Positions 3,830-29,664 of a stretch of DNA of 32,326 nucleotides are shown one piece after another (position 1 is the stretch's first letter; the number at the start of each line of letters is the position of its first letter). A program made the position numbers and the translations under genes. The stretch comes from Methylocystis sp. (lineage in GTDB: Bacteria > Pseudomonadota > Alphaproteobacteria > Rhizobiales > Beijerinckiaceae), in the NCBI GenBank assembly GCA_024506175.1, contig JAMBEQ010000165.1, positions 1 through 32,326 on the forward strand, written 5' to 3'. The notes beneath the pieces were generated by a model that had not been told where the DNA came from, searched no databases, and saw only the letters and a program-made list of their open reading frames with translations.

Positions 3830-3947
3830 TTAGAGCGCATTCCGCAAAAGTTGACAGAATTTCGCGATAAGAATGCGCTCCAGATTTTTGATTTTGCGCG
3901 ATTTCTTATCGCTCGCATGATTTCCATGCGAGCGGAAAGCGCGCTAG
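3830..3947 (+). repeat. MITE-like CTAG repeat, copy A
   Basis: About 118 bp. It opens with TTAG-AGCGCATTCCGC and closes with GCGGAAAGCGCG-CTAG, so the ends are imperfect terminal inverted repeats (10 of 12 bases match). Internally it can fold as two hairpins: GAGCGCATTC pairing with GAATGCGCTC around a CGCAAAAGT-type arm, and CTCGCATG pairing with CATGCGAG. It is the most diverged copy in the first hairpin (GAATTTCGCG). It encodes nothing. Further copies are at 3944, 6747, 27294 and 29556. Confidence 0.85.
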
Positions 3948-4059
3948 AGCGCATTCCGCAAAAGTTGACAGACTTTTGCGATAAGAATGCGCTCCGGGTT
4001 GCGACTTTGCGCGATTGCTTGTGGCTCGCATGATTCCAAGCGAGCAGAAAACGCGCTAG
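3944..4059 (+). repeat. MITE-like CTAG repeat, copy B, tandem to copy A
   Basis: Same structure and orientation as copy A and directly adjacent, sharing one CTAG (3944-3947) with it. The first hairpin is intact: CGCAAAAGT, loop TGACAG, ACTTTTGCG, flanked by GAGCGCATTC and GAATGCGCTC. Its right-hand CTAG (4056-4059) contains, on the minus strand, the TAG stop codon of the small gene at 4056-4292. Confidence 0.85.
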
Positions 4060-6746: not shown

Positions 6747-6862
6747 CTAGCGCGCTTTCCGCTCGCATGAATCATGCGAGCGACAAGAAATCGCGCAAAA
6801 CCAAGAATTTGGAGCGCATTCTCATCGCGAAAGTCTGTCAACTTTTGCGGAATGCGCTCTAC
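6747..6862 (-). repeat. MITE-like CTAG repeat, copy C
   Basis: Reverse orientation relative to copies A and B. The left end CTAGCGCGCTTTCC is intact; the right end reads GGAATGCGCTCTA without the final G. Both hairpins are preserved. It fills most of the 210-base divergent intergenic region between priA and the gene at 6883, so it lies within 75 bases of the priA start and 21 bases of the other start. On the minus strand it carries a perfect TTGACA facing priA. Confidence 0.85.
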
Positions 6863-7476: not shown

Positions 7477-7852
<376 letters not shown>

Positions 7853-7871
7853 CCAAGTTTTTTCGATGGGG

Positions 7872-7952
7872 CGTCATTGCGAGGAGCGAAGCGACGAAGC
7901 AATCCAGAGCGGTTATAGCGGCCCTGGATTGCTTCGCTTCGCTCGTAATGAC
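7872..7952 (+). repeat. Large inverted repeat of the GTCATTGCGAG type, copy 1
   Basis: The left arm begins GTCATTGCGAGGAGCGAAG and contains CGAAGCAATCCAG. The right arm is CTGGATTGCTTCGCTTCG through to CTCGTAATGAC. The arms enclose about 16 bases and would form a long hairpin in DNA or RNA. The same motif occurs at 20931-21011. GTCATTGCGAG...CGAAGCAATCC palindromes are known as interspersed intergenic repeats in many proteobacterial genomes. Confidence 0.85.
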
Positions 7953-8310
7953 CGGAAACCGGGTGGGGTCCGCGCAGTCACGGCAGGGGTTTGGGCTTTA
8001 CCCCACCCGGCTCCGCCATAGCCCGTGCAAAAGACGGGCGTCCCTTGGCTGGGGTAGCCGCTTGCATTTGACGCTACTTCCTGCAGGCGCCGGTAACCCT
8101 CCCTTAAGACTAACAAAGCTTAATGTTGTATGGCGCCGGAGGAGGCGCTGCGGCTTGCCCGCCGCTCCGCCGACGCTCTTGAACTCAACGATGGCCCGCG
8201 AAACGATTTCGCCCCGACGCTCGATGACTGCGCGTGGACCTCATAAAGGCCCGCTCGCGCATGGCCGCCGCGTTCGGGAGACGGCTTTGGCGAATGCGAG
8301 GGCGAGTGTG
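7953..8310 (+). other. Repeat-rich leader between rnpB and rsmH; no mraZ
   Basis: 358 bases without a convincing gene. It contains an inverted repeat CCGGGTGGGGT (7959-7969) with ACCCCACCCGG (8000-8010), whose CCCCACCCGG core also occurs in the palindrome inside murE. A possible -35 (TTGACG, 8068-8073) and a CtrA-like site (8093-8107) lie in the only AT-richer stretch, so the dcw promoter is probably near 8070-8125. An in-frame extension of rsmH back to ATG 8190 exists but has no ribosome-binding site. I find no MraZ-like coding remnant. Confidence 0.6.
8093..8107 (+). promoter_or_regulatory. Possible CtrA-like binding site
   Basis: GTAA-N7-TTAA, one mismatch from the alphaproteobacterial CtrA consensus TTAA-N7-TTAA, about 200 bases upstream of rsmH in the probable promoter region of the division cluster. 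A one-mismatch match to such a short motif can occur by chance. Confidence 0.25.
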
Positions 8311-9830: not shown

Positions 9831-11632
9831 TAGAGCGCCAGCCCATTCCGGACATGCTCGAAACGCCGCCATCGCGGCCGACGAGGAAGCCCTCGAAATA
9901 TGCGGGTTTTATCCGCGCTGTCTTTTCGACGAGGCTCGACGCGAGCGCCTCGCGCATGCGCCTTGCTGCGCTTGGCTTCCTCGTTCTTTACGGCGTGATC
10001 TGCGCGAAGCTTATCTATCTCGGCTTCAAGCCCGAGACAGCCCATCATCCGGCGGTCGAAGCCGTTTCCGCCTCGCGGCCGGACATCTTGGATCGCAACG
10101 GCCAAGTGCTGGCGAGCGACGTGAAAGTGATGTCCGTCTTCGCCGAGCCCAAACGTCTCATCGACAAGGACGAGGCGACCGAGCTGCTCACCGCGGTTCT
10201 ACCGGACGTGGACCCCAGGGAACTGCGTGATCGCCTGGGCGCCGCGAAGAAAGGCTTCGTCTGGGTGAAGCGCGAAGTCACGCCGCATCAGCGCGACGAA
10301 GTATTTCATCTCGGCCTGCCGGGCGTCGGGCTCATCGCGGAGAACAAGCGCGTTTATCCCAACGGGCCGATTGGAGCCCATGTGCTGGGCTTCGCCAATG
10401 TCGATAACCAGGGCATTGCCGGCATCGAGAAATATATCGACGGGCAGGGCCTCGCCGATTTGCATAACCTCGGCTTCGGCGCCACGCCTGACGAGCTGCA
10501 ACCGATCACTTTGTCGCTCGACGCACGCGCGACGCATGCGATGCGCGACGAGCTCGAGAGAGGCGTCACCCGTTTCAAGGCAAAGGCGGGCGCAGCGGCG
10601 ATCCTGGACGTGAACACGGGCGAAATAATCGCGCTCGCTTCGCTCCCCGATTATGATCCCAACAAGCCGACGGATGAAAAGGCCAACGCGCTCGACCTGA
10701 CGCATATCAACCGCATGAATGTCGGCGTCTACGAGATGGGCTCGACCTTCAAGGCGCTCACCATCGCCATGGCGCTCGACTCCGGCAAGGTGAATCTCAG
10801 CTCCCGCCTGGATGCGCGCGGGGCGCTCACCTTCGGCCGTTTTAAGATCCATGATTATCACGCGCAAAACCGCGCATTGACCGTGCCGGAGGTCTTCACC
10901 TACTCATCCAACATCGGCACGGCGCGCATGGCGATGGGGCAGGGTGTCGAGAAGCACAAGGTGTTCTTGCGCAAGATGGGGCAGCTCACGCGCATGCGCA
11001 CGGAGCTTCCAGAAAGCGCCGAGCCGATCTATCCGAAGAACTGGAGCGAGTTGAATACGATGACCATCGCCTTCGGCCATGGTCTCGCGGTGGCGCCGCT
11101 GCAGGCGATGATGGCGGTCGGCGCGTTGATGAACGGGGGCTATCTCATCACGCCCACCTTCCTGAAGCGCTCGCAGGAAGACGCGATGAAGGACGCCGCG
11201 CAGGTAGTGAAGCCCGAGACGAGCGAAGCCATGCGCTATCTCATGCGGCTCAACGCGGAAATCGGCACGGCGCGGAAGGTCAATATCGACGGCTATTTTG
11301 TCGGCGGCAAAACCGGCACGGCGGAGAAGGTCATCCACGGCCATTACGACAAGAACCGCCTGTTCACGACCTTCATGGCTGTCGCGCCCTCCGACAAGCC
11401 GAAATATCTTTTTCTGACCATCATGGACGAGCCGCAGGGCCTGCCCGAGGACGGCGGCCACGCGACGGCCGCCTTCAACGCCGGCTATGTGACGGGTCGG
11501 ATCATCGAGCGGACGGGGCCGGTTCTGGGCCTCGCGCCGCGCTTCGAGCCGCCGAATCAGCCCTTTCCGCTGCTCGCCAAACTCGGCTATGGCATGGCCA
11601 ATGTTCCTTCTTCCGGAGGCCACGGCCACTGA
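9827..11632 (+). CDS. ftsI: Septal peptidoglycan transpeptidase FtsI (PBP3)
   Basis: 601 aa class B penicillin-binding protein. A cytoplasmic N-terminus of about 45 residues precedes one transmembrane helix (LAALGFLVLYGVICAKLIYL). The pedestal domain starts with RPDILDRNGQVLASD. In the transpeptidase domain the nucleophile motif is STFK at 306-309, SSN at 360-362, and KTGT at 495-498. It cross-links septal peptidoglycan in the periplasm with FtsW as partner. The start at 9827 overlaps ftsL by ATGA. Its TGA shares one base with the murE ATG. Confidence 0.96.
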   Translation: MIERQPIPDMLETPPSRPTRKPSKYAGFIRAVFSTRLDASASRMRLAALGFLVLYGVICAKLIYLGFKPETAHHPAVEAVSASRPDILDRNGQVLASDVKVMSVFAEPKRLIDKDEATELLTAVLPDVDPRELRDRLGAAKKGFVWVKREVTPHQRDEVFHLGLPGVGLIAENKRVYPNGPIGAHVLGFANVDNQGIAGIEKYIDGQGLADLHNLGFGATPDELQPITLSLDARATHAMRDELERGVTRFKAKAGAAAILDVNTGEIIALASLPDYDPNKPTDEKANALDLTHINRMNVGVYEMGSTFKALTIAMALDSGKVNLSSRLDARGALTFGRFKIHDYHAQNRALTVPEVFTYSSNIGTARMAMGQGVEKHKVFLRKMGQLTRMRTELPESAEPIYPKNWSELNTMTIAFGHGLAVAPLQAMMAVGALMNGGYLITPTFLKRSQEDAMKDAAQVVKPETSEAMRYLMRLNAEIGTARKVNIDGYFVGGKTGTAEKVIHGHYDKNRLFTTFMAVAPSDKPKYLFLTIMDEPQGLPEDGGHATAAFNAGYVTGRIIERTGPVLGLAPRFEPPNQPFPLLAKLGYGMANVPSSGGHGH

Positions 11633-13287
11633 TGCGTCTCTCTAAGCTCCTCGCCCGAGACGATCTCGATCCCGCGATCGGGAGCATCGAGATCGAGGGC
11701 CTCTCGGCGGATAGCCGCGTCCTCGGCGAGGGTTTTGCTTTTTTCGCCATTCCCGGCCATGCCGGAGATGGCCTTTCCTATGTGAGCGACGCCAAGGCGC
11801 GTGGCGCCGCCGTCGTGATCGCGCAGCGGCCGGCCGAATGCCCTTTGCCGCTCGTGGTGGTTCCAGACGTTCGCGCGGCTCTGGCGCATGCGGCGGGGCG
11901 CTTCTATCCGCGCCAGCCGCAAACCATTGTCGCGGTCACGGGCACGAGCGGCAAGACCTCTGTCGTCGCCTTCCTGCGCCAGATCTGGGCGGCTTTGGGG
12001 CATGAAGCGGCCTCGCTCGGCACGGTCGGCGTCGTGGACTCGAAAGGCGCGCATTATGGCGCGCTGACGACGCCCGGCCCAGTCGAGCTGCACAAGACGC
12101 TCCAGGAGCTCGCCGATCGCGGCGTCACCCATCTCGCGATGGAGGCGTCGTCGCTGGGCATCGACCAGCGGCGCCTCGATGGGGTTCGACTGACGGCGGC
12201 CGGCTTCACCAACTTTTCGCGGGATCATCTCGATCACCACCGCGATATGGAAGAATATCTCGCGGCGAAGATGCGGCTCTTCGATACGCTGCTGCAGCCG
12301 GGCCAAACGGCGGTGATAGACGCCGACAGCGACGTGGCTGAGCGCGTCGCGGAGATCTCCCGGTCGCGTGGATTGAACATATTCGGCGTCGGCGCCAAAG
12401 GCGAGGCGATTGCGTTGCAGGGCAATCGGGATGCCGGGCGTGAGCCAATCCCTCCCCTTTACGGGCAGGGTGGCCCCGCGTCAGCGGGGTCGGGTGGCGC
12501 ACCTCAGCACTATGCAAGCGGCGAGAGCCCCACCCGGCGGCCTTTGGCGGCCGACCTCCCCGTAAAGGGGGGGTATTTCGGGGCTAACGAAGCCAGATCG
12601 CTACTCTACGTCGCGCTGAAGGATTCACGGGCGCATGCGCTGGCGACGAGCCTGGAGCTCATTCACGCCGGCAATCATTACAAGGTCGAACTGCCGCTCG
12701 CGGGCGCCTTCCAAACGTCCAACGCGCTCGTCGCGGCCGGTCTGGCCATCGCCTCAGGGGACGATCCGGCGCGCGTATTCGCCGCGCTGGACGATCTGAA
12801 AGGCGCACCCGGCCGGCTGGAGCTGATCGGCGCGCGCAATGGCGCGCCGGCCTTCGTCGATTACGCTCATAAGCCCGATGCGCTGGAGAAGGTGCTCGCC
12901 ACGCTGCGGCCGCTGACCAAGGGCCGCCTCATCGTCGTATTCGGCTGCGGCGGCGATCGCGACAAGGGCAAGCGCCCGTTGATGGGCGAGATTGCCGCAC
13001 GCGCCGCCGATGTCGTCATCGTGACGGATGATAATCCCCGCAGTGAGGAGCCAGGCGCGATTCGGGCCGCGATCATCGAAGGGGCCAAGGGCGCCGGCTC
13101 GGCGCAGCTTATCGAGATCGGCGACCGCGGCGAGGCGATCTCCCAAGCTGTCGCAGGGCTTCGCGCCGGCGACGTCCTCGTCGTCGCGGGCAAGGGGCAC
13201 GAGACTGGCCAGATTGTCGGCAATCGAATATTGCCCTTTTCCGACCACGAAGCTGTCAAGAAAGCGCTGCAGGAGCACGGTCCATGA
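11632..13287 (+). CDS. murE: UDP-MurNAc-tripeptide synthetase MurE, with in-frame palindromic insertion
   Basis: 551 aa, against roughly 480-500 for the family. It adds meso-diaminopimelate to UDP-MurNAc-L-Ala-D-Glu. The ATP loop GTSGKT is at 104-109, TTPGPVELH and MEASSLG follow, and the meso-Dap selectivity motif DNPR is at 467-470. The extra length is explained by an insertion at about residues 274-314 (12451-12573), rich in Gly/Pro/Ala/Arg with palindromic DNA ends. It keeps the reading frame and has no stop. It falls between AIALQ and the conserved strand HYKVELPLAGAFQTSNA, probably a surface loop of the central domain. The gene is otherwise intact and essential, so the longer protein should be functional. 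It overlaps murF by ATGA. Confidence 0.95.
   Translation: MRLSKLLARDDLDPAIGSIEIEGLSADSRVLGEGFAFFAIPGHAGDGLSYVSDAKARGAAVVIAQRPAECPLPLVVVPDVRAALAHAAGRFYPRQPQTIVAVTGTSGKTSVVAFLRQIWAALGHEAASLGTVGVVDSKGAHYGALTTPGPVELHKTLQELADRGVTHLAMEASSLGIDQRRLDGVRLTAAGFTNFSRDHLDHHRDMEEYLAAKMRLFDTLLQPGQTAVIDADSDVAERVAEISRSRGLNIFGVGAKGEAIALQGNRDAGREPIPPLYGQGGPASAGSGGAPQHYASGESPTRRPLAADLPVKGGYFGANEARSLLYVALKDSRAHALATSLELIHAGNHYKVELPLAGAFQTSNALVAAGLAIASGDDPARVFAALDDLKGAPGRLELIGARNGAPAFVDYAHKPDALEKVLATLRPLTKGRLIVVFGCGGDRDKGKRPLMGEIAARAADVVIVTDDNPRSEEPGAIRAAIIEGAKGAGSAQLIEIGDRGEAISQAVAGLRAGDVLVVAGKGHETGQIVGNRILPFSDHEAVKKALQEHGP
12451..12573 (+). repeat. Palindromic repeat inserted in frame inside murE
   Basis: The left arm CCTCCCCTTTACGGGCAGG (12451-12469) pairs with CCTCCCCGTAAAGGGGGG (12555 onward). 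The interior holds a second hairpin, CCCCGC-GTCA-GCGGGG (12474-12489), and a right-hand motif CCCCACCCGGCGGCC. It is about 123 bp, a multiple of three, so murE stays open. The CCCCACCCGG core is shared with the inverted repeat at 7959-8010. It behaves like the Rickettsia palindromic elements, which also lie in frame in genes; homology to them is not implied. Confidence 0.8.
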
Positions 13288-20930: not shown

Positions 20931-21011
20931 CGTCATTGCGAGCGAAGCGAAGCAATCAAGAACCCCGCCGCGGCGCTGGATTGCTTCGTCGCCTCGCTCC
21001 TCGCAATGACG
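20931..21011 (+). repeat. Large inverted repeat of the GTCATTGCGAG type, copy 2
   Basis: The left arm is CGTCATTGCGAGCGAAGCG with AAGCAATCAAG; the right arm is CTGGATTGCTTCGTCGCC through to CTCGCAATGACG. It is the same family as 7872-7952 and fills the murC-murB spacer. In a polycistronic transcript it would form a long stem and could affect read-through or mRNA processing. Confidence 0.85.
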
Positions 21012-25588: not shown

Positions 25589-27297
25589 CGATCAATCTCA
25601 AAGCGCCCGAACTGCGGGAATTGAAGCCCCGGATCATGGTCTGCGGCGTGGGGGGCGGCGGCTGCAACGCCGTCAACAACATGATCGCCTGTGGTCTTAC
25701 CGGCGTCGATTTTCTCGTCGCCAACACCGATGCTCAGGCGCTGGCCTCTTCCGCCGCCGAGCGGGTGATTCAGATGGGCCTGCAGGTGACGGAAGGCCTC
25801 GGCGCCGGCGCCCAGCCGGAGGTCGGCCGCGCCGCCGCCGAGGAGGCGCGCGAGGAAATCCGTGAGCATCTGCAGGGCGCGCATATGTGCTTCGTCACCG
25901 CCGGCATGGGCGGCGGCACGGGCACGGGCGCGGCGCCGGTCATTGCGCAGATCGCGCGGGAGATGGGTATCCTCACCGTGGGCGTCGTGACGAAGCCTTT
26001 CCACTTCGAGGGTCAGCGCCGTCTGCGCATCGCGGATGCCGGCATCACCGAGCTCCAGAAGTGCGTCGATACGCTCATCGTCATCCCGAACCAGAACCTC
26101 TTCCGCATCGCGACGGAGAAGACCACCTTCGCCGACGCCTTCGCCATGGCGGATCAGGTGCTCTATTCAGGGGTCGCCTCGGTCACCGACCTGATGGTGA
26201 AGGAAGGCCTCATCAATCTCGACTTCGCCGACGTGCGCTCGATTATGCGCGGCATGGGCAAGGCGATGATGGGCACGGGCGAAGCGACCGGCGAGCGCCG
26301 CGCCAATCTCGCGGCTGAAGCCGCGATCGCCAATCCGCTTCTCGACGAAGTGTCGATGAAGGGCGCGCGCGGCCTGCTGATCTCGATCACGGGCGGCCAT
26401 GACCTCACGCTCTATGAAGTCGACGAGGCGGCGAGCCGCATTCGCCAGGAGGTGGACGAAGACGCCAATATCATCCTCGGCGCGACCTTCGATACGTCGC
26501 TCGAAGGCGTTATTCGCGTCTCGGTCGTGGCGACGGGGATCGACCTCGACGCGATCACGGCGGAGGATCCGACGAGCCAGAGCCGCATGGCCGAAGCCGC
26601 CGAGCGCCTGCGTCAGCAGCTGACGAAGTCGCAGCCGGCGCCTGCGCCGGTCGCAGAGTCGGCCCCGGCGCAAATCTACGCCATGCCCGAACGTGCGCCC
26701 GCGCCAGCATATCAGCCCGAAGCGGCGCCGATGCAGGCCTACTACGCAGAGCCCGCCCAGGCCGCTCCTGCCCAGATGACCACCAATGGCGTCTATCTGG
26801 AGCCGGTCGCGGCGCGTCCAACCTATGTTGAGCCTATGCCCGGGCCCGCGCCGCGCATGATGGCCGCCGAGCAGGCTCCCGCGCCTTACGTGCCGCCGGC
26901 GCCGGAAATGCCGCGCACGCCCCGCATGCCGTCGATCGAGGATTTCCCCAAGCCGGTGCAGGACCAAATTCGCCAGCACCGGGCCGAGGCCGCCCAGGAT
27001 CCGCGCCGCAAGTCGATCTTCGAGCGTCTTGCCTCCTTTGGCGCCAGCCGCCAGGAGGATACGATGCAGGGCGCTCCCGCTCCCGCGCCTTATCAGCAGG
27101 CGCCCATGCCGCCTCGCGCGCCGCAGCCCTCGCCGGCCCATGCCGAATATGGCAAGCGTCCGGCGGCGCCGGCTCCTCAGCAGGCGCCGGGCCACGCGGC
27201 GCTCGATACGCACGGCCGTCGCGCTCCGGCGCCGCGTCCGGTCGAGGAAGACCATCTGGAAATCCCCGCGTTCCTGCGCCGGCAATCGAACCACTAG
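25585..27297 (+). CDS. ftsZ: Cell division protein FtsZ
   Basis: 570 aa tubulin-like GTPase that forms the division ring. The nucleotide site shows [13 protein letters not shown] near residues 21-33, VANTDAQAL, and the tubulin signature GGGTGTG at 109-115. T7-loop text [20 protein letters not shown] is intact. The globular part ends near residue 320. A Pro/Ala/Gln-rich linker of about 230 residues follows, long but usual for Hyphomicrobiales, and then the conserved C-terminal peptide EIPAFLRRQ (559-567) that binds FtsA. GAGAGG precedes the ATG. Its TAG stop lies inside the CTAG end of repeat copy D. Confidence 0.98.
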
Positions 27298-27410
27298 AGC
27301 GCATTCTGCAAAAGTTGACAGACTTTTGCGAGAAGAATGCGCTCCAATGCATTGATTTTGCGTGATTTATTCTCGCTCGCATGATTCCATGCGAGCGGAA
27401 AGCGCGCTAG
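27294..27410 (+). repeat. MITE-like CTAG repeat, copy D
   Basis: Forward orientation, both CTAG ends intact (27294-27297 and 27407-27410). The first CTAG contains the ftsZ stop codon. The first hairpin shows a C-to-T change that keeps pairing as a wobble (TTCTGCAAAAGT). The second hairpin CTCGCATG-ATTC-CATGCGAG is perfect. It lies between ftsZ and its terminator. Confidence 0.88.
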
Positions 27411-29559: not shown

Positions 29560-29664
29560 CGCTTTCCGCTCGCACAGAATCATGCGAGCGATAGGACGCG
29601 CAATTTCAAAAAGGTAGAGCGCAATCTTATCGCAAAAGCCTGTCAACTTTTGCGGAATGCGCTC
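29556..29664 (-). repeat. MITE-like CTAG repeat, copy E
   Basis: Reverse orientation. The left CTAG (29556-29559) contains the bamD stop codon. The right end reads GGAATGCGCTC followed by CGG, without CTAG. It is slightly shorter in the middle than the other copies. The hairpin near the left end changes CATG to CACAG with a matching change opposite. It separates the convergent ends of bamD and the hydrolase and may act as a 3'-end hairpin for both. Confidence 0.85.

Follow-up and report, generated by a model that had tools for sequence, protein, structure and literature searches.

A probable decayed miniature inverted-repeat element with ISAs1-type ends lies in frame within murE of a Methylocystis genome

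Palindromic DNA elements that sit in frame in genes for conserved proteins have been described as Rickettsia palindromic elements (RPE) and WPE. These elements are given as 105 to 146 bp long (PMC2229807), and their insertions are reported at solvent-exposed places (PMC10969869, PMC3767692). In the table of a review (PMC2229807), the target duplication of RPE, and with it the way in which such coding palindromes move, carries a question mark. Mainly intergenic miniature inverted-repeat elements (MITEs) with occasional in-frame insertion are also on record; three papers (PMC2759123, PMC2229807, PMC5896051) name the enterobacterial RU-1/ERIC, RU-2, and RU-3, Neisseria Correia, and Coxiella QMITEs. 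In-frame MITE fusions have precedents in this literature (PMC10969869, PMC2229807, PMC2759123), and therefore the kind of element considered here, a MITE with in-frame fusions, is known. The precedents RU-1/ERIC, RU-2, RU-3, Correia, and QMITEs have other hosts and, by their names and descriptions only, are other elements, whereas the insertion described here is in a cell-wall ligase. The family described below, its host, and its ISAs1 link were not found in the open-licence literature searched, nor was a paper joining Methylocystis with miniature inverted-repeat elements. Where Methylocystis does occur with "palindromic," in the available text of PMC3794950, the subjects are CRISPR and oriC, and no murE insertion was found in the available text of PMC5896051.

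The window analyzed here, a stretch of 32,326 bp, is contig C165 of a draft genome (G000; 3.37 Mb, 266 contigs, 97% complete) whose host is probably a methane-eating bacterium; the named MurE sequences nearest to its own are from Methylocystis. Its murE gene (positions 11632 to 13287, plus strand) is an open reading frame of 551 residues, the length given in the first-pass annotation, and its product matched the NCBIfam MurE model NF001124 with 616 bits in two stretches. A search at E ≤ 1e-30 gave this one MurE match only in the genome, and the lengthened protein is presumably a working MurE.

The first-pass annotation had placed about 41 extra residues (123 bp, 12451 to 12573) in this gene and had proposed that MurE of relatives be aligned. 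MurE matches were obtained in 40 of 41 genomes, the window genome included, and 28 of the 39 others were aligned (23 from the same genus and 5 from other families in the order); outside the alignment were L054, from the same genus and with the N-terminal part only, and 10 genomes of other orders. All 28 aligned relatives lacked 67 residues, with a gap between GEAI and ALKD. Among 80 named MurE loci, the region was 58 to 85 residues shorter in 79 (median, 67), and one locus was not measurable. Because the relatives miss 67 residues, the in-frame insert in MurE measures 201 bp (about 12418 to 12618 against the aligned relatives), and the stretch from 12451 to 12573 is its palindromic core only. 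The smaller size was thus corrected, and the frame stays open through the element, as had been claimed. The nearest aligned relative has 86% MurE identity, and the insert would be younger than the split from that relative if it was not lost in the others.

The MITE copy in murE was delimited by family alignments, a terminal inverted repeat search, and coordinates to 12418 to 12608 (plus strand, 191 bp). It comprises a left terminal repeat (CAGGGCAATCGGG...), the palindromic core, and a right arm (...GCCAGATCGCTACTCTA); the left end agrees with the family terminal repeat at 13 of 17 positions, and the right terminal repeat is lost. The core, as defined by its arms and fold, spans 12447 to 12577 (plus strand). 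Its arms (12447 to 12475 and 12549 to 12577) are 83% complementary, and the palindrome folds at −81.7 kcal/mol (z, −4.71), with equal stability in 0 of 200 shuffles. The internal CCCCGC/GCGGGG hairpin is present in both sequence and fold at 12474 to 12489 (plus strand). Both the inverted-repeat ends and the hairpin had been noticed from the letters alone.

Next to the copy lie two potential target-site copies, GATTGCGTTG on the left (12408 to 12417, plus strand) and CGTCGCGCTG on the right (12609 to 12618, plus strand). The empty site is GATCGCGCTG in the relative L037, with variants of it in other relatives; each flank agrees with the L037 site at 8 of 10 positions, and the two agree with one another at 6 of 10. 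Judged by sequence, the flanks may be the relic of a worn 10-bp target duplication, which the comparison fits without proving. In an alternative reading, GCGCTG would be the worn right end of the copy, with no duplication.

A structure of MurE was predicted with AlphaFold2 from 28 sequences (mean pLDDT, 81.7). Residues 265 to 317 (codons at 12424 to 12582, plus strand) were the only stretch with pLDDT below 50 over three or more residues; the blocks beside it had values of 87 and 82, and a few blocks elsewhere had values of 52 to 66. The best Foldseek matches to the model were MurE crystal structures (TM-score, 0.75 to 0.77 by query). In answer to the proposal that the insert might prove to be a surface loop, the model presents it as disordered, and it looks like a floppy loop.

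The element is one of a dispersed family. In the window genome, the core used as a query gave 82 matches at E ≤ 10 (both strands counted), and a fuller copy gave 46 matches at E ≤ 1e-4; in the aligned copies, the arms are conserved beyond the core. At E ≤ 0.001, 22 of 41 genomes matched, the window genome included; 19 of these are among the 24 congeners, and some of the 19 had just one to three matches. Beyond the genus, weak matches came from 2 of the 16 genomes that represent other families (16 genera) and from 1 of 288 other genomes across the class, where no more than two candidate places were scored per genome, and plasmids gave one match of about 50 bp. Within the window, CCCCACCCGG occurs 3 times versus 0.09 expected. 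The recurrence of this sequence that the first-pass annotation had reported is at 8001 to 8010, beside or inside a 59-bp fragment that also belongs to this family (7959 to 8017, minus strand; nhmmer E value, 2e-9). Both expectations attached to that annotation were borne out, in that the relatives lack the segment and other copies of the element are present in the genome. The gene for RNase P class A RNA (7478 to 7854, plus strand) is just upstream of the 59-bp fragment, and a search of the whole window against Rfam at gathering thresholds returned RNase P RNA alone. Separately, short pieces of the element, many of about 50 bp and from the left core, form clusters in G020 contig C1 at about 2,435,000 to 2,448,500 and at 3,602,675 to 3,603,061.

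The outermost conserved sequence of the end-intact copies is a terminal repeat, CAGGGCAATCGGGTGAA. A pattern search that allowed 2 mismatches located it 48 times in 4 genomes, versus 0 for the reversed control. In genome G009, an inverted pair of this repeat (17/17 and 16/17) bounds a 1,254-bp element whose target duplication of 10 bp, ATACGGGGGT, is exact. The element contains a gene for an ISAs1-family transposase (NF033564; two pieces scoring 261.9 and 99.4 bits) with one internal stop. Target duplications of the ISAs1 family are 8 to 10 bp. ISAs1 matches at E ≤ 1e-20 were found in 11 of 39 genomes of the genus, and exact 10-bp duplications were found at 7 of 10 loci examined, with locus ends picked by best repeat plus duplication. 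Six of these seven carry CAGGG at each end, including four from G024 and one from G052 with frames that contain no stop; the inner ends of the full-length, stop-free ISAs1 elements in these two genomes are of the CAGGGCTATCGCATTTGA type, unlike those of the element. The window genome, G002, and G020 were searched for an ISAs1 transposase and yielded none.

Both ends are intact at 12 or more of 17 positions in nine copies of the element, eight of which are 205 to 211 bp long and one of which is 240 bp long. The flanking 10-mers of these copies, taken with no shifts, agree at 9, 9, 7, 6, 5, 5, 4, 3, and 2 positions. The mean of 5.56 of 10 compares with 2.96 for shuffled pairs, and the maximum of 2000 shuffles was 5.11; a 10-bp duplication is thus above chance at the level of the family (n = 9). 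A second family of palindromic MITEs shares these terminal repeats and has another interior (L150, 442 to 615; L151, 436 to 609; L152, 385 to 556). By reading, its 10-bp duplications are exact in L150 and L151, which are 174-bp palindromes, and imperfect in L152.

Taken together, it is likely that the murE segment is a decayed MITE with ISAs1-type ends that was moved in trans by an ISAs1-type transposase and is now in frame in murE. The element shares with ISAs1-mobilized MITEs the CAGGG-type terminal repeats, the 10-bp duplications, the lack of a transposase gene (at 191 bp, the murE copy is too short for one), the short palindromic form, and the many copies; it differs from them in that the ends are worn in most copies and that no ISAs1 transposase was found in the window genome. 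Against this reading, the element has its ends alone, and not its interior, in common with the ISAs1 element, recognizable ends are kept in the nine copies only, and the duplication reaches 9/10 in two of them. The lost right repeat and 6-of-10 flanks of the murE copy also speak against it, as do the internal stop in the G009 transposase gene with matching ends and the different inner ends of the stop-free elements. The terminal repeats are of the ISAs1 type and therefore point to a likely mobilizer. An ancestral MITE, originally about 205 to 211 bp long and bounded by CAGGGCAATCGGGTGAA, would most likely have been recognized at these ends by an ISAs1-family transposase acting in trans, which placed it in murE and duplicated 10 bp of target. 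The murE reading frame would have survived because the phase happened to fit: after small losses, the element and the duplication together came to 201 bp. In the protein, the 67 added residues would make up a flexible loop of the central domain, with no disruption of the MurE fold. A decayed ISAs1-type MITE accounts for the size, the ends, the dispersion, the absence in relatives, and the disordered loop.

The principal competing explanation is a coding palindrome of the Rickettsia type, kept compatible with coding and spreading in genes by a conserved open frame. We consider this unlikely, even though three unrelated genes of a single genome carry the element in frame. Across four genomes, 84 copies or fragments were examined (36 in G000, 23 in G002, 19 in G009, and 6 in G020). 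For this census, L031 to L033 and the window itself were removed as duplicates; G002 and G009 were counted from about 100 bits upward and profile hits from 60 bits upward, and most of the short matches in G020 were set aside. Only 6 of the 84 are in frame between coding flanks: murE in G000, dnaE2 and ligD in both G000 and G002, and dnaE2 in G020, where the insert is mixed and, by reading, in a further frame than the other copies. The frames were assigned by a codon-usage score with a threshold set here, and the six in-frame cases were checked by Pfam or homologues. In 36 copies, coding sequence lies on a single side, and in 29 it lies on neither; the rest have coding flanks on the same strand in different frames (7 copies), in the same frame with a stop (3 copies), or on opposite strands (3 copies), and may represent either disrupted genes or pairs of neighboring genes. 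Ten open frames that overlap copies were compared with Pfam; families were found in dnaE2 and ligD, and the eight frames with none were not counted as genes. The ligD and dnaE2 copies of the window genome are in-frame copies in other genes, of the kind that the first-pass annotation had proposed counting. The insert is absent from G009 ligD, both G010 and G007 have a shorter dnaE2 at the site, and G009 dnaE2 has a different insert at the place.

Frame counts in 68 near-complete copies also argue against coding specialization. A surplus of open frames over shuffles was sought in these copies and not found: there were 1.04 open frames per copy versus 1.17 in shuffles, and at least one open frame was present in 52 of 68 copies versus 72% of shuffles. 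These counts therefore give no support to a palindrome built for coding; in GC-rich sequence, about one of six frames is open in any case. In favor of a coding palindrome, ligD and dnaE2 share one frame (peptide TSPLRGGRRP...), the one of the six that is most often open (21 of 68 copies), and the copies are common to G000 and G002; against it, murE reads the opposite strand of the element, in a frame open in 15 of 68. Between G000 and G002, insert pN/pS is about 0.25 in dnaE2 (46 codons) and 0.36 in ligD (48 codons), versus 0.10 and 0.15, respectively, outside the inserts. The insert values come from few changes (10 and 21) and could stem from the palindrome at the DNA level. By these sequence comparisons, constraint on the inserts is weaker than that on the host proteins, with perhaps some left. 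Of the first-pass proposal of a protein-coding mobile palindrome, the mobile, dispersed element in frame in an essential ligase stands, and the coding specialization is not supported. Most copies lie outside genes or at gene edges; on the reading as a decayed ISAs1-type MITE, those in murE, ligD, and dnaE2 would be rare genic insertions tolerated by selection.

The same region of dnaE2 carries differing palindrome-like inserts across species (L077, L078, L141, and L084, which are dnaE2 of G002, G009, G020, and a genome of another family), one of the peptides being TPTPNPSPQGGGG; it looks like a place where palindrome insertions are tolerated. In G000, a stretch at an end of contig C245 (54990 to 55484) repeats the opening 165 residues of the C249 dnaE2 piece with 98% identity, probably because the contig ends overlap or because strains vary.

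An extragenic palindrome of the REP/BIME type, for which a REP-associated tyrosine transposase (RAYT) and not a DDE transposase would be the mover, would also have GC-rich stem-loops, occur in both orientations, and lie mostly outside genes, as the element does. The length of about 200 bp, the 17-bp terminal repeats, the 10-bp target duplications, and the match of the ends to an ISAs1 element make this reading very improbable. Mis-joining of a repeat into murE during assembly is hardly credible, even in a draft of 266 contigs and with repeats known to break assemblies, given that the sequences on either side make up the two halves of a single murE, correctly ordered and in one frame, that the genome has no other MurE match, that a possible duplication relic flanks the insert, and that the in-frame ligD and dnaE2 copies are common to the separate assembly G002.

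Comparison with the RPE and WPE gives a mixed picture. Like them, the element is a palindrome found in frame in several unrelated conserved protein genes (murE, ligD, and dnaE2). Unlike them, it is about 205 to 211 bp long, lies mostly outside genes, has open frames at the shuffle level, is read on both strands, and has ISAs1-type ends with target duplications; its host, too, falls with Methylocystis and not in the Rickettsiales. Membership in the RPE was considered and is not claimed, since the element shows no sign of keeping a coding-compatible frame or conserved peptide and its host is not in that order. The likeness in behavior to RPE suggested in the first-pass annotation therefore holds at low frequency and without the coding specialization.

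With readable ends, duplications, and a candidate transposase in congeners, a family that behaves like RPE at a lower frequency makes the question of movement testable. It also supplies comparable cases of mobile DNA lengthening core enzymes, murE in one species and ligD and dnaE2 in two. A more ambitious interpretation, which we regard as possible but doubtful, is that this is an RPE-like family outside the Rickettsiales with a nameable, ISAs1-type mobilizer, in which one could retrace and test how MITEs seed new peptide loops, in frame, within essential proteins and in which the ligD and dnaE2 inserts, kept in two species with pN/pS below 1, may already be under protein-level selection.

Two further repeats were seen in the window. 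One (TAGAGCGCATTCCGCAAAAGTTGACAG...) is dispersed, with five copies in 32 kb (3831 to 3922, 3945 to 4036, 6769 to 6861 on the minus strand, 27295 to 27387, and 29597 to 29664 on the minus strand), and one of its copies starts at the stop codon of ftsZ. The other, CGTCATTGCGAGGAGCGAAGCGACGAAGCAATCC, and its partner are at 7872 to 7952 and 20932 to 21011, inverted and 13 kb apart.
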